Virus record (IMG/VR): IMGVR_UViG_3300025695_000096 | Location: 1 to 23,737 of that record | Direction: 5' to 3' (one strand) | DNA: 23,737 nt | Source of the DNA: a virus | Part shown: positions 10,109 to 15,640 of the stretch, piece by piece | Numbering within the stretch: the first letter of the stretch is position 1 | Layout of the letters: every line of letters begins with the position of its first letter | Program-made: the position numbers and the translations under genes | Notes under the pieces: generated by a model | Database searches by the model: none | What the model was told of the DNA's origin: nothing | The model's input: the letters and a program-made list of their open reading frames with translations, nothing else

Positions 10109-10136
10109 CGATAAATAGAATAGCTCGGTGGGAAGA

Positions 10137-12398
10137 ATGGAAAAACCAAACACATTACTGGAGTGGGCCAGATATTACGCGGGACTCGGTTTCAGCGTCA
10201 TACCGGTTTACACGGTTGACGATTCCGGCATCTGCACTTGCAAGAAGAAAGAAGAATGTAAGAACGCAGGCAAGCATCCGGCGATCAACTGGCAACGCTT
10301 CACCAAGAGAAAAGCGGACGACGATCAACTGCTTGTCTGGTTCGATGGTATGGAGCATAGCCATAACGTTGGACTGGTGACCGGTTCAGTCAGCAATAAC
10401 ATATTTGTTATCGACGTGGACACGGGTCAGGGTAAGACCGGACTGGAGACGCTCGATCAGGTTCAGATGGCGCATGACGACCTACCGATCACCGCAACAG
10501 CGAAGACCGGATCAGGTGGTAAGCACATCTTCCTGAGAGCGCCTAACGGGTTCCATGTGAAGACCGACACCAATCTGATCGGCAGAGGCATTGACGTGCG
10601 AGGCGAAGGTGGCTTTGTCGTTGCCGCGCCAAGCCGTCACGCGTCAGGTAATCGCTACACCTATGACATGGACGACATCGCGGATGCACCGAACTGGGTT
10701 CTGGCGATGGTAGAAGGGGGTGTCACGGGATCAAGTGACACGCATCTGCAATCCACGACAACCAATCCGTTCGGCCAGTACGACGACGGACGTGAAGCCG
10801 TGATGATGAAAACCATCGTCTCAACGATCCTGTCGTACTACGAATCCACGGCATCGATGCCAACGTTGGACGACCTGATTGAACACGGGTGGCCGTTGTA
10901 TGAGATGCGAGTGGCAACCAGAAACGGTCGCACGTTAGAAGAGGACGGGAGAGGCATCAGCGCGTTCACCGAGAAAGCGGCATACCAACTCGCTAGAGCG
11001 AAGCGCGGTGATCTCGATACGCTGAACCACGTTCGTTCCAAAATGGAAGCAATGGGCATCAAGGAAAACGCATCGGGGGGATACGATGAGTCGAAGGAAA
11101 CAGAGCAAGAGATTGATGACGATTACGCCGACGGGTCTGTACAGACCGTTAAGGTTCTGCGAGAGGCTGTCAGAATGGCGCAGGATACGGAGGAGAGGCG
11201 TCAGACGCGCTTACATCTTGAGGACTGGCACGTCGGTCGCTTTAAAGGCGAGCCGCCAGAGATGGAGTATTTGGTCGAGGGCATCTTTCCTTCGGGAGTC
11301 CCCGCGCTTCTTGCGGCTTCGGGAGGGATCGGAAAATCATTCGCGCTTCTCGATCTGGCTCTCAAAGTCGCACTCTTTAAGGGAGATGATCCGTTTGAAG
11401 TGGCTCCGTTCGCGTTCGGCGGGCGAATCACAAAGGGTGGAAAGGTTGTATTCCTTACCGCCGAAGATAGCGCGGATTCGGTCCATCGGCGGTTGGCTCA
11501 AATCTCTACGCGTGATGAACTGGAAAGTGCGTCGGAGAATCTTGTTGTTGTGCCGTTACCCGACGCGACGGGAGCCATCGCTTTAATCAACGAGGGAATG
11601 GGCGTCGTCTCAATGACCGAGCATTACCACGACCTGATGGATCAGTTGCTCAACATGGGTGACGTGGCGTTGGTGATTATCGATCCACTGCAAGCGTTCT
11701 GTTGGGCAGACGTAAACGCTGATCCGAAAGCCGCGCAAGTGTGGTGGACCGCAATGAGTTCTATCTGCGCGAAGACCGGAGCCACGCTGATCGTTGCGCA
11801 CCATATGCGTAAAGATGGTCTGAGAGGCATCACAGTGGCCGAGGAAGCGCGTGAAGCGATTAGAGGCTCAACCGCCTTGGTCGATGGTGCGCGTCTGGTG
11901 TACGCGATGTGGGCGATCAGCGGTGACGCGGAGATCGGTCCGTGCAAGGCGCTTGCATTACCGCTGAATAAGCAGTCGATCGTGTGCGGGTGTGTCGTGA
12001 AGGCGAATGACCTGATCGACAGGGACGTGCGTTATTACGGACGTGGTAACAATGGATTGCTTGAGGACCGTACAGCGGAGGTCGAGTCAGCGCGGAGACG
12101 TGAGGACGAGGTTAGCCAAGAGCAGATCGATAAGACGTTTGCCGAGATCGAGCTACGTTGGAATCGCGAGAACCCGTTCAGCAACGCCAGTCAGACCGGC
12201 GACCGTTATCTAGTCCGTTGGATGACCGAGAACATTGGAATGACAAAACGTGCCGCGAACAAGGCGATGTGCGAGTGGATCGACCACGGGTACATCACGA
12301 TTGAAATGTTAAGCGGCAACACGAAGAAGAAGGGGTTATGCGTCATGCATACGCCCACGTCAGAGATTAAAGAAGAAAGAGGGTTCGTGAATGACTAA
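10137..12398 (+). CDS. Primase-polymerase / replicative helicase fusion, 753 aa
   Basis: Makes primers and unwinds DNA at the phage fork. The N-terminal half is an archaeo-eukaryotic-type prim-pol: a cysteine-rich insert with C33, C35, C41 and H47 ahead of the core, IDVDTG with the metal-binding DxD at 93-95, GSGGKH at 125-130, and GIDVRGEGGFVVAAPS at 151-166. Residues 220-305 form a helical linker of PriCT character. The C-terminal half is a RecA/RepA-like helicase: Walker A ASGGIGKS (394-401), a TAEDS segment (441-445), Walker B VIIDP with D516, and AHHMRKDG (554-561). Residues 660-735 look like a winged helix. ATG 10137 is preferred to GTG 10128 (756 aa). It stands after a terminator, so has its own promoter or receives read-through. 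Confidence 0.93.
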   Translation: MEKPNTLLEWARYYAGLGFSVIPVYTVDDSGICTCKKKEECKNAGKHPAINWQRFTKRKADDDQLLVWFDGMEHSHNVGLVTGSVSNNIFVIDVDTGQGKTGLETLDQVQMAHDDLPITATAKTGSGGKHIFLRAPNGFHVKTDTNLIGRGIDVRGEGGFVVAAPSRHASGNRYTYDMDDIADAPNWVLAMVEGGVTGSSDTHLQSTTTNPFGQYDDGREAVMMKTIVSTILSYYESTASMPTLDDLIEHGWPLYEMRVATRNGRTLEEDGRGISAFTEKAAYQLARAKRGDLDTLNHVRSKMEAMGIKENASGGYDESKETEQEIDDDYADGSVQTVKVLREAVRMAQDTEERRQTRLHLEDWHVGRFKGEPPEMEYLVEGIFPSGVPALLAASGGIGKSFALLDLALKVALFKGDDPFEVAPFAFGGRITKGGKVVFLTAEDSADSVHRRLAQISTRDELESASENLVVVPLPDATGAIALINEGMGVVSMTEHYHDLMDQLLNMGDVALVIIDPLQAFCWADVNADPKAAQVWWTAMSSICAKTGATLIVAHHMRKDGLRGITVAEEAREAIRGSTALVDGARLVYAMWAISGDAEIGPCKALALPLNKQSIVCGCVVKANDLIDRDVRYYGRGNNGLLEDRTAEVESARRREDEVSQEQIDKTFAEIELRWNRENPFSNASQTGDRYLVRWMTENIGMTKRAANKAMCEWIDHGYITIEMLSGNTKKKGLCVMHTPTSEIKEERGFVND

Positions 12399-13260
12399 CG
12401 TAGTGAGCTTCAGCGGAGGTCGAACATCCGCATATATGGTTTATCTGATGGAGAAGATGCGTCGGAACGGGGAAATGGATGATGTCCATTACGTTTTCAT
12501 GGACACCGGAGCCGAGCATCCAAAGACGTATGAGTTTATTAAGAACTGCGTGGATCACTTTAAGATCGACTTGCGATGTATCCGTACTGATATATCGATG
12601 GACTTTGGGACCGGACCGAAATACACGGAGATCACTTTGGACGAGTGTGGCCCAGACCTTCAGCCGTGGATCGATATGACGCGAAAGTATGGCACTCCGT
12701 ATACGCATGGAGCGTTTTGTACAGACCGGATGAAGACAGCGCCTTACAAGAAGTTTTGCGATGACCAGTTCGGCAAGAAAAGTTATGTGACGTGGCTAGG
12801 AATTCGGTCAGATGAAACACGCAGGATCAACTTAGCGCGGGAGGGCTATCGCTATCTCGCAGAGATCAGTCCAATGACAAAGATTGACATCAATGGATGG
12901 TGGTCCGAGATGCCGTTTGACCTAGACCTTCCTGATTACCTTGGTAATTGCGTCTTCTGCTTGAAGAAGGGCGACAACAAGATTGCACTGGCGATGCGTA
13001 AGGAGCCAGAGCTAGCCAAGCAGTTCAACGAAATGTTGTCGCGTGAAGACGTAAGGACGCCTGACAACAAGCAAGAACCGAATCCAAACATTTATCGCAA
13101 TGCGTTTTCGATGGCTGACATTGAACGCGTCTATGCTCATGTGCCAACTGAATATCTGGATCAGCGCATGAAGCCGAACCGAGGCAACTGTCAGGAGTCG
13201 TGCGAGGTATTCGGGTGTACGGATGACCTATTTGCCGATCAAGGGGGAAGCAATGACTAA
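12391..13260 (+). CDS. PAPS-reductase-like PP-loop ATPase with cysteine clusters, 289 aa
   Basis: The family (COG0175; CysH, CysD, DndC and others) activates a sulfur donor or an adenylated intermediate. The PP-loop SFSGGRTS is at 6-13, and FMDTGAEHPKTYEFI (36-50) matches the second conserved motif. Cysteines at 110, 187 and 190, then at 267, 271 and 276, could bind iron-sulfur or zinc, as in DndC-type proteins. CysH's usual C-terminal ECG-type redox tail is not seen. ATG 12391 overlaps the primase-helicase stop by 8 bases and the gene's own end overlaps the next start. Such genes are frequent in phages, but their substrate is mostly unknown. DNA or nucleotide sulfur modification is one possibility. 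No DndD/E-like partner is seen. Confidence 0.85.
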   Translation: MTNVVSFSGGRTSAYMVYLMEKMRRNGEMDDVHYVFMDTGAEHPKTYEFIKNCVDHFKIDLRCIRTDISMDFGTGPKYTEITLDECGPDLQPWIDMTRKYGTPYTHGAFCTDRMKTAPYKKFCDDQFGKKSYVTWLGIRSDETRRINLAREGYRYLAEISPMTKIDINGWWSEMPFDLDLPDYLGNCVFCLKKGDNKIALAMRKEPELAKQFNEMLSREDVRTPDNKQEPNPNIYRNAFSMADIERVYAHVPTEYLDQRMKPNRGNCQESCEVFGCTDDLFADQGGSND

Positions 13261-13522
13261 GGATCAAATCGACATCATCGTGGAGATGTACAAGGACGGG
13301 CGGAACTACACGAAGATCGCGAAGGACGCAGGGACATCGATCTACACGGTGAAGCGTTGGGTACGCCTGAACAGGGACGAGTATGGGTTGACGCGTAGAC
13401 GCAACCTCGCGGAAGGGACAGGCGTGAACGGGTACAGCGCGGAGATCGCTTCATCGTGGAACCTGAAGCTGTCCAAGGAGTATCTAGTGAAGGCGTGGGG
13501 GAGCGTGGCGTCATGGGAGTGA
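13253..13522 (+). CDS. Helix-turn-helix DNA-binding protein, 89 aa
   Basis: ATG 13253 is chosen because GGGGGAAG (13242-13249) lies just upstream. The first residues (MTKDQIDIIVEMYKDGRNYT) and KIAKDAGTSIYTVKRWVRL (21-39) form a clear trihelical HTH with a turn at AGTS and a recognition helix IYTVKRWVR. Residues 40-55 are basic (RDEYGLTRRRN). The C-terminal third is ordinary helical sequence. It is probably a DNA-binding regulator or part of a nuclease complex. It is translationally coupled to the PP-loop gene upstream and to the PD-(D/E)XK gene downstream. Confidence 0.75.
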   Translation: MTKDQIDIIVEMYKDGRNYTKIAKDAGTSIYTVKRWVRLNRDEYGLTRRRNLAEGTGVNGYSAEIASSWNLKLSKEYLVKAWGSVASWE

Positions 13523-13935
13523 TGTACGAGACAGCGCAGGACTTGAAGCGTGAGAGCGATGTGATCGACGCATACGCAAAGATGTTGGGTTACGAATACC
13601 AGAAGCTACCGATTGCGTATAAGGCGGACTATGCGCTTCTGGAGGACGGTGGAGTGAAGGCGCTTGTTGAGATCAAATGTCGCAACGTCAACCACGATAC
13701 CTATGACACGATCATCCTTAGCTTGCTCAAGTGGCACGACATCAATGCGATGTCGCAACGCATAAATATTCCCGCAGTATTCGTTATCCGCTACAACGAT
13801 GGGGTGTTCTCAATACCGATGCGTGAGGCGCCTGACGCGATCACGATTGGAGGACGCGTAGACCGTGGAGACAGTCGGGATATTGAGCCGGTGATTCATT
13901 ACAACGTCGATCGCTTGAGGAGGAAGACCGTATGA
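13513..13935 (+). CDS. PD-(D/E)XK nuclease-like protein, 140 aa
   Basis: A small endonuclease-fold protein. The active-site pattern D39 (KADYAL) ... E53-I-K55 (LVEIKCR) is visible, with a beta-hairpin between them, and a long helix following at about 65-82. ATG 13513 is chosen since GGGGGAG (13497-13503) is nine bases upstream; ATG 13522 (TGATG overlap) would remove three residues. The rest (TIGGRVDRGDSRDIEPVIHY, 111-130) carries no further motif. Flanked on both sides by HTH proteins with overlapping stops. It may be a Holliday-junction-type, structure-specific or degradation nuclease. The second nuclease in the genome (the other is at 8229) suggests a distinct role. Confidence 0.75.
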   Translation: MGVMYETAQDLKRESDVIDAYAKMLGYEYQKLPIAYKADYALLEDGGVKALVEIKCRNVNHDTYDTIILSLLKWHDINAMSQRINIPAVFVIRYNDGVFSIPMREAPDAITIGGRVDRGDSRDIEPVIHYNVDRLRRKTV

Positions 13936-14114
13936 CGACTAACCCGTACTGGCGCAATCACAACACGCGCAAGCTCGATCCGGAGGACGTAATCCTCATC
14001 AGGGCATTGCGTAAGGAAGGGCTGACGTTGCAGGCGATTGCTGAGAAGTTCGAGGTAACGAAGACGCACGTTAGCAAAATTGTGAACCTGAAGATTTGGA
14101 GCCATTTGAGATGA
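13932..14114 (+). CDS. Small helix-turn-helix protein, 60 aa
   Basis: ATG 13932 overlaps the nuclease stop by four bases, with GAGGAGG at 13917-13923. Residues 17-53 (EDVILIRALRKEGLTLQAIAEKFEVTKTHVSKIVNLK) have a compact HTH of the resolvase/AsnC-like type: a first helix, LTLQAIAEKF, turn, and VTKTHVSKIV as recognition helix. The start MTTNPYWRNHNTRKL is polar. It probably binds DNA and may regulate the operon or recruit the neighbouring nuclease. It overlaps the next gene (ATGA). Confidence 0.78.
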   Translation: MTTNPYWRNHNTRKLDPEDVILIRALRKEGLTLQAIAEKFEVTKTHVSKIVNLKIWSHLR

Positions 14115-14519: not shown

Positions 14520-14750
14520 ATGAGCGGCAAGGGTGACGCATACAGACCGGTAGACCGTGAGAAGTATGCAAGCAACTGGGATCGCATTTTTGCGATAAAG
14601 GAAGACCGTGAGTCCGTGCTTCATCCTCAGTCCCTTCGGAAGAAGGACTGCGTGAAACATTTGCAGGATCAGACCGGAAAAGCGGTGGGCCGCTGTCCGA
14701 ATACGATTGATATTGAGGAGCAAATTGAGCAAGACCGTGGGACCGATTAG
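14520..14750 (+). CDS. Conserved small phage protein, MSGKGD type, 76 aa
   Basis: ATG 14520 follows CGGAGGA (14505-14511). The opening MSGKGDAYRPVDREKYASNWDRIF resembles a widespread small phage protein of unknown role that begins MSGKGxxRRP and continues with a YxxxWDxIF motif. The middle contains LHPQSLRKKDCVKHLQD and the end is acidic. An upstream start at 14460 would lie in the operator-like element and is not favoured. It is the last gene before the iteron interval. Function unknown. Confidence 0.72.
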   Translation: MSGKGDAYRPVDREKYASNWDRIFAIKEDRESVLHPQSLRKKDCVKHLQDQTGKAVGRCPNTIDIEEQIEQDRGTD

Positions 14751-14757
14751 GGGTGTT

Positions 14758-14939
14758 TGCGGAAGTCTGCGGAAGTCTGCGGAAGTTGAGACTGGGGTAT
14801 GCGGAAGTCGTTAAAATCCCTTAAGGGAAATAGATAACTTCCGCAATGGTTTTGGACGGGTCTGCGGAGGTTGGCGGAAGTTGTTGGTCTTACTCGCAGT
14901 CATGCGGAAGTCGTCACTTGTCGTTGACGACGTTCCGCA
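14758..14939. repeat. Iteron array (TGCGGAAGT), candidate replication origin
   Basis: The intergenic interval holds copies of the 9-base TGCGGAAGT. Exact forward copies are at 14758-14766, 14768-14776, 14778-14786, 14800-14808 and 14903-14911. An exact inverted copy (ACTTCCGCA) is at 14837-14845. Near copies are at 14863-14871 (TGCGGAGGT), 14873-14881 (GGCGGAAGT) and, inverted, 14931-14939. The first three are spaced exactly 10 bp apart, about one helical turn. Clusters like this are the hallmark of Rep-protein-bound origins. The array contains an AT-rich segment near 14811-14840. Could instead be an operator or packaging/recombination site. Confidence 0.75.
14817..14828. repeat. 12-bp perfect palindrome in the iteron region
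   Basis: TCCCTTAAGGGA is self-complementary over 12 bases and lies in the AT-richer gap between the fourth iteron and the inverted iteron. It could be a dimer-binding site or a melting landmark in a putative origin. Confidence 0.6.
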
Positions 14940-14948
14940 GTGACGACT
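14909..14948. repeat. 10-bp inverted repeat beside the last iterons
   Basis: AGTCGTCACT (14909-14918) pairs with AGTGACGACT (14939-14948), enclosing a second small stem, GTCG/CGAC, at 14920-14931. The outer arm overlaps the last forward iteron and the inner one the inverted near-copy. The structure could be a nick site, cruciform or dimer-binding site. Confidence 0.7.
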
Positions 14949-15049
14949 CACGAAAGTAACGCGCAGGAGAATTGCGTGAAACATCTCGCGATGAGATAGC
15001 TCGATGTTATCGCTACGCGAAGAACATCTTAATAATTGAGGGAATGAAT

Positions 15050-15640
15050 ATGGATGATTATGCATCGAAGATCATGACCGACGAAGGAGGTTATGCATCG
15101 GACGTGACGCGGAAAGCTGTTGCAAGTTGGGAACGCAGAAAAGCGGAGGCGGTGTCACGTTGGGGGAGCTTGGACCGTTTAGCGTCGAAGTGTAGTCCTG
15201 AGACTGCGGCTAAGTTCGCAAAGGCGAAGGGACGGATGAAGGATGCGAAGGTTAGTGCGGAGGAGTTTGAATACGCGAAACGGTTAGGCGTCATGGAGCG
15301 AGGCGTGGATGCGTTGGAGAAGGAAGCAATGGCAAACGGGTACGCGTCGAATGATCTGTGTTGGTTTGACCTGAAGATGCGGGTGAAGGACCGGCGCGCT
15401 TCGCGCTCAGAGACTTCGCAAGAAGGACTGCGTGCCGTCTTTGTGGTGAATCCGGAGGATGCCGGATACGTCGCGGCAACGTTGGGGCATGAACTGGGTG
15501 AGGAGGTGATCGTGTACACGGTAGCGGACATCGTGATGATGGCTCACGAGAATCCAACAGCGTTGACCCATTTGAAACAGATCGCAGGCGCGTATACTAC
15601 TCATGTGGATATAGCGGGAGACGGGGAAGCGCCGTGGTAG
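15050..15640 (+). CDS. Hypothetical protein next to the iterons, 196 aa
   Basis: ATG 15050 follows GAGGG (15038-15042) by seven bases and is preferred. An upstream TTG (14972) would give 222 aa but its AGGAGA is too close. The first half is helical and charged (RKAVASWERRKAEAVSRWGS, then AAKFAKAKGRMKDAKVSAEE). The second half has strand/helix alternation, including AVFVVNPEDAGYVAATLG and EEVIVYTVADIVMMAH. No enzyme motif or HTH is recognised. Its place immediately downstream of the iterons makes it a candidate for an origin-linked function such as a replication initiator, but that is inference only. Confidence 0.7.
   Translation: MDDYASKIMTDEGGYASDVTRKAVASWERRKAEAVSRWGSLDRLASKCSPETAAKFAKAKGRMKDAKVSAEEFEYAKRLGVMERGVDALEKEAMANGYASNDLCWFDLKMRVKDRRASRSETSQEGLRAVFVVNPEDAGYVAATLGHELGEEVIVYTVADIVMMAHENPTALTHLKQIAGAYTTHVDIAGDGEAPW

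Follow-up and report, generated by a model that had tools for sequence, protein, structure and literature searches.

In the 23,737-nucleotide viral contig analysed here (IMG/VR record IMGVR_UViG_3300025695_000096; below, the window), a cluster of short repeats occupies a stretch without genes, which raises the question of what the repeats are for and which protein recognises them. To our knowledge, the origins of most environmental phages are unknown, and an earlier note made from the sequence alone had read the cluster as an iteron-type origin of replication. We consider it probable, with a rough probability of 0.83, that the element is an iteron replication origin read by the product of gene A, a protein combining a Prim-Pol domain, a RepA-type helicase and a winged helix.

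Structure and conservation of the repeat array

The window has six exact copies of the repeat TGCGGAAGT, which lie together at 14758-14911 (plus strand at 14758, 14768, 14778, 14800 and 14903; minus strand at 14837), against a mean of 0.26 and a maximum of 3 in dinucleotide shuffles of the window. The first three copies are direct iterons in exact 10-bp steps (14758-14786, plus strand), which are kept in relatives, and the last exact copy lies at 14903-14911 on the plus strand. Two further copies with one mismatch each, TGCGGAGGT and GGCGGAAGT, start at 14863 and 14873, again 10 bp apart (14863-14881, plus strand), and the minus strand adds a copy with two mismatches at about 14931-14939. The counts of six exact and three near copies, the use of both strands, the 10-bp steps and the gene-free setting given in the earlier note were thus all recovered; we found no convincing gene between 14751 and 15049. 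Its 12-bp palindrome TCCCTTAAGGGA is also present, at 14817-14828. The note missed that the iterons at 14800-14808 (plus strand) and 14837-14845 (minus strand) are symmetric around the centre of this palindrome, so that iterons, AT-rich spacer and palindrome form one dyad of 46 bp (14800-14845).

A 10-bp inverted repeat reported in the same note, AGTCGTCACT/AGTGACGACT (14909-14918/14939-14948), is present in the window but lost in most relatives, unlike a shorter hairpin at 14910-14931 that had been overlooked. This hairpin, GTCGTCA-CTTGTCGT-TGACGAC, has a stem of 7 pairs which covaries in relatives, with 100 % of the alignment cells paired and two pairs showing changes on both sides. Taken together, the dyad and the 7-bp hairpin are kept in relatives with both-side changes in five pairs, and shifting the same structure by 1-3 columns lowers its score sharply. 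Two of these five pairs sit in iterons, and their covariation may reflect protein binding and not base pairing. The hairpin could be a priming or melting structure. No Rfam family reached its gathering score in a search of the region for structured RNA. A promoter reading was rejected, as the region has no sigma-70-like site.

Relatives were sought among IMG/VR contigs with the large terminase subunit and the gene following the array as queries, which turned up contigs that carry the array at the same place. The whole element, comprising iteron array, dyad and hairpin (14747-14968, 222 bp), is 95-96 % identical in two near-complete relatives of 37.3 and 38.1 kb, and most other blocks are 76-87 % identical; the long gene blocks are at about 78-84 %, and genes at about 82 %. 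Moreover, the first base of most iteron copies has changed in concert, to give GGCGGAAGT in three relatives (L008, L014 and L024) and ACGGAAGT in another (L028). Because the 222-bp element is conserved above the level of the genes and its copies changed together, the array is no chance feature. The earlier note had named a search of relatives for iterons conserved in place as a check on its origin reading, and this check came out strongly positive. GC skew, another check it named, gave no support: both near-complete relatives are positive throughout and the detrended minimum is not at the array, but the test is weak because nearly all genes lie on one strand.

The two ends of the 37.3-kb relative (G001; ends L104 and L105) overlap by 126 bp, apart from the first 7 bases, where the sequence agrees with a different strain. 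It is classed as linear but is probably a circle assembled from two strains.

The array lies between two recurrent gene families

We scanned IMG/VR viral contigs with an exact pattern of two GCGGAAGT in tandem (GCGGAAGTNNGCGGAAGT), which returned 106 stretches. The loci examined were the scan loci L112-L215 together with L024 and L090, some of them from the same contig or from close relatives. At least four copies within 300 bp were present in 80 loci, which we treat as arrays, and 17 loci had two copies only, as chance would give. An iteron origin is expected to show conserved, phased short repeats outside genes, as the window does, and to lie with an initiator gene. For the latter, a homologue of A accompanies 50/50 arrays that are flanked by 1.5 kb or more on each side; a homologue of B, the first gene after the array, accompanies 44/50, and neither is found with any of the chance pairs (0/11; Fisher p 2e-12). 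The remaining six of these arrays have A and lack B. In all loci having both A and B (58/58), the order is A, array, B on one strand, and in L112 the array starts inside the A frame, within its last 60 bases. In the window, the array is about 2.4 kb from gene A, with small genes between, two of them HTH-like.

Judged from sequence, the order A-array-B recurs in many unrelated phages. Iterons near terminase genes, which the earlier note found unusual in layout, are then nothing peculiar, as the replication module merely abuts the packaging genes. The proximity nevertheless raises the possibility that packaging starts here, at a cos or pac site which the terminase small subunit recognises: the TerS gene is about 1 kb downstream of the array, and the cosB site of phage lambda also has phased repeats beside the lambda TerS gene. 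Among 79 array loci, however, the TerS and TerL families of the window occur in only 9, compared with 62 for A and 57 for B, and the window terminase is linked with arrays in close relatives only. We rejected the packaging site on the grounds that terminase genes are unassociated with arrays outside close relatives, and regard it as the least probable of the readings considered, with hardly any chance of being correct. The circle of the 37.3-kb relative, with its 126-bp overlap across the array region, neither supports nor excludes a cos end.

The same survey bears on a transcriptional function, in which the array would be an operator or enhancer for a phage regulator encoded by one of the HTH genes (13253-13519 or 13932-14111) and not an origin. 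Two small HTH-like proteins are encoded nearby, and phased repeats would fit a regulator too. Yet the families common to most array loci are A and B, none of those listed there includes an HTH gene of the window, and the iteron sequence tracks the winged helix of A (see below). We therefore think an operator in place of an origin very unlikely. As small HTH-like genes separate gene A from the array, a regulator could bind the array in addition, and A itself could autoregulate through it.

Genes A and B

Gene A (10128-12398, plus strand) encodes a protein with a Prim-Pol domain at residues 15-190 (PF09250), a helicase of the RSF1010 RepA type at about 359-600 and a C-terminal winged helix at about 662-745. 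The helicase assignment is based on PF13481 (AAA_25, residues 359-564) and on a match of residues 371-591 to RSF1010 RepA (PDB 1g8y, E 6.6e-12). The C-terminal 134 residues, modelled from 27 sequences, form a predicted winged helix with a core pLDDT of about 90. The structural neighbours of this model are winged-helix domains, among them those of SAMD1, the MCM C-terminus, LexA and DnaD, with Z up to 8.9, which indicates the fold and not the family. A gene for phosphoadenosine phosphosulfate reductase adjoins the replication module in the window (12391-13260) and also in Roseobacter phage CRP-821 (L325 5178-5981).

Gene B (15050-15640, plus strand) encodes 196 amino acids of an undescribed family, and the window protein had no match in Pfam, PHROGs or NCBIfam at the thresholds used. 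In its model, a helical bundle at the N-terminus is followed by an alpha/beta part at the C-terminus. With Foldseek there was no match under E 0.5, and VIA-align mostly matched the N-terminal part to helical bundles; none of these matches was informative. Most B homologues outside the window lineage (L114, L118, L140, L171 and others) end in DDEIPF or a close variant, which resembles the C-terminal tail of bacterial SSB; in the window lineage the last residues are APW, AGW or similar, and such a tail is absent. The homologues found in bacterial genomes are mostly from Alphaproteobacteria. In annotated phages, tblastn recovered no B, but it was too weak for this family, since a profile search of annotated records found B in Roseobacter phage CRP-821. 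We infer that B is an accessory replication protein and, given the SSB-like tail of most members, it may recruit host replication proteins. This gives a likely role, in replication, to a family so far without annotation.

Which protein reads the iterons

We took modules by their A and B proteins only, not by their repeats, which gave 63 distinct modules. In 57/63, the A-B interval has an 8-mer count above all 60 shuffles; L228 has A and B but no detectable array. Iteron distance was compared with the distance of protein domains over 990 module pairs. The correlation was highest for the winged helix (rho 0.64), followed by Prim-Pol (0.48) and helicase (0.45), with other parts of A also at about 0.3-0.5, and was only 0.08 for B. 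Given the helicase, the partial correlation was 0.51 for the winged helix (permutation p 0.0005) and -0.09 for B, and given the winged helix it was 0.01 for the helicase. As the permutation test controls for helicase distance, shared ancestry is reduced in these values but not fully removed. A CGRAR core was present in the top 8-mer of 49/51 modules with the winged-helix profile compared with 1/11 without it. As for the two exceptions among the 51, the L285 interval also contains seven CGGAAGT and that of L295 also GCGGAGAA. By this statistical coupling, the repeat sequence appears to track the winged helix of A and not B. Across modules the C-terminal domain thus follows the iteron sequence, and it may specify the iterons, as would be asked of a protein of the P4 alpha/SaPI Rep type.

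These values also bear on an origin in which B, in the manner of IncQ RepC, reads the iterons and A serves only as helicase and primase. B adjoins the array in 44/50 amply flanked cases, as expected of a dedicated initiator, and RSF1010 has a separate iteron-binding protein beside a related RepA helicase (PMC4234260). However, the six amply flanked arrays that lack B all have A, the iteron sequence does not follow B, the same B family stands beside unrelated iterons, and B has no recognised DNA-binding fold. Reading by B is in our opinion unlikely, though the least so of the alternatives.

Comparison with known systems and proposed mechanism

The helicase of P4 alpha belongs to SF3; that of A is of another kind, with the AAA_25 and RSF1010 RepA matches given above. 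P4 alpha combines primase, helicase and winged helix in one protein that binds origin repeats, then unwinds and primes (PMC4234260). A shares the layout of one primase-helicase protein with a C-terminal winged helix (predicted), but P4 alpha has a TOPRIM primase (PMC4234260) and A a Prim-Pol with a RepA-type helicase; the likeness considered here is one of domain layout. In SaPI Rep and SCCmec Cch2, a self-loading helicase recognises iterons just downstream of its own gene through its C-terminal domain (PMC7581432); these helicases are of other families, and CCPol is separate in SCCmec where Prim-Pol is fused in A. The oriV of RSF1010 (IncQ) has in common with the window a RepA-type hexameric helicase, iterons and a short stem-loop beside them, the covarying 7-bp hairpin being a possible counterpart of the ssi stem-loops that the RSF1010 primase uses. 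RSF1010 uses three proteins, RepA, RepB' and RepC, of which RepC reads the iterons, whereas in the window the primase-helicase itself appears to contain the reader. ORF904 of pRN1 and the proteins of phages BPP-1 and BIP-1 also have Prim-Pol, helicase, C-terminal winged helix and an origin 3′ of the gene (PMC4234260). Their helicase, however, is of SF3, and a large stem-loop stands in place of iterons; the window has a RepA-type helicase, iterons and a hairpin of only 7 bp. Such phage Prim-Pol/winged-helix proteins were argued to assemble at stem-loops (PMC4234260), and the present module would qualify the proposal that they start there and not at iterons.

From the facts on the module and the examples of P4 alpha, SaPI Rep, SCCmec Cch2 and RSF1010 (PMC4234260, PMC7581432), the mechanism that we favour is one in which A binds, melts and primes and B assists. 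A, encoded upstream, would bind the helically phased iterons via its winged helix and assemble at the CCCTTAAGGG dyad, on the two inverted iterons that flank it. It would then melt the AT-rich spacer at the dyad and load itself as helicase. The first primers would come from its own Prim-Pol domain, for which the C-rich core and the hairpin next to it are possible sites, and B, from the gene right after the array, would act as an accessory factor.

Variation of the module

The repeats vary by lineage (CGGAAGT, CGAAAGT, CGGAGGT, TGCGCCACTG, CGGGAGCG, GTGTTTCG and others). Spacings of neighbouring copies cluster at 10-11, 21-22, 31-33 and 43 bp across modules and are thus helically phased, although modules that are related do not count as independent. 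In other modules, too, inverted iterons flank a CCC-WW-GGG core. A CCC-TWWA-GGG dyad separates the inverted iterons of several modules, and in many marine lineages a C-rich core takes its place. Arrays whose A lacks the winged helix have other repeats, often still around the CCC-TWWA-GGG dyad. Among relatives by terminase at about 50 % identity, A has another C-terminus with no winged-helix profile match, the repeats are CGATACGG with a CCCCCTATAGGG dyad, and B is at the same place; these seem to show an exchange of reader and repeats in place, with dyad and B staying.

We see about even odds that these modules represent a widespread, undescribed class of phage replicons. Such replicons would have a RepA-type helicase with a primase either fused to it or encoded alongside, and an exchangeable C-terminal reader specifying the iterons just downstream. 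The CCC-TWWA-GGG dyad would stay as reader and iterons change in step, and in most cases the B family with its SSB-like tail would come next. Among the papers listed in literature searches for the repeat and for RepA-like phage origins, none was relevant. A simple rule would locate origins from sequence, namely repeats between a primase/RepA-helicase gene and a B gene, and the modules would offer reader domains paired by nature with their binding sites, a series that makes change of origin specificity in phages directly testable.

IHF-like sites number 14 in the A-B intervals against 3.4 expected. The IHF consensus WATCARNNNNTTR is present in the A-B intervals of 12 modules, about four times as often as in shuffles and often between iterons.

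In annotated records, repeats lie directly 3′ of primase/helicase genes in Rhizobium phages RHph_Y3_1 (TGGGAACG) and RHph_N65 (GGCGGAGAT) and in Roseobacter phages CRP-406 (GGCTGGAAA) and CRP-821 (TTGTATAAA, followed by B). Plasmid p1 of Caenibius sp. WL is a complete circular phage-like replicon of 38 kb that encodes an integrase. Its A-B interval contains 12 TGCGGAAG, and its annotation lists no further replication initiator. With related modules in this integrase-bearing plasmid and in bacterial genomes, the description of the phage as lytic-type in the earlier note is not borne out. Modules in bacterial genomes also carry other repeats (TGTCACTT and GTGTTTCG; L303 4967-5095 and L306 3860-4013), and L306 has a CCCCCCTAAAGGGGGG dyad as well. 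On plasmid unnamed4 of Methylobacterium currus (L326 4188-4340), genes for a TOPRIM primase and a RepA-type helicase are followed by eight CGCAACA around a CAACCCTATAGGGTTG dyad, which by its sequence is the same layout with another primase.
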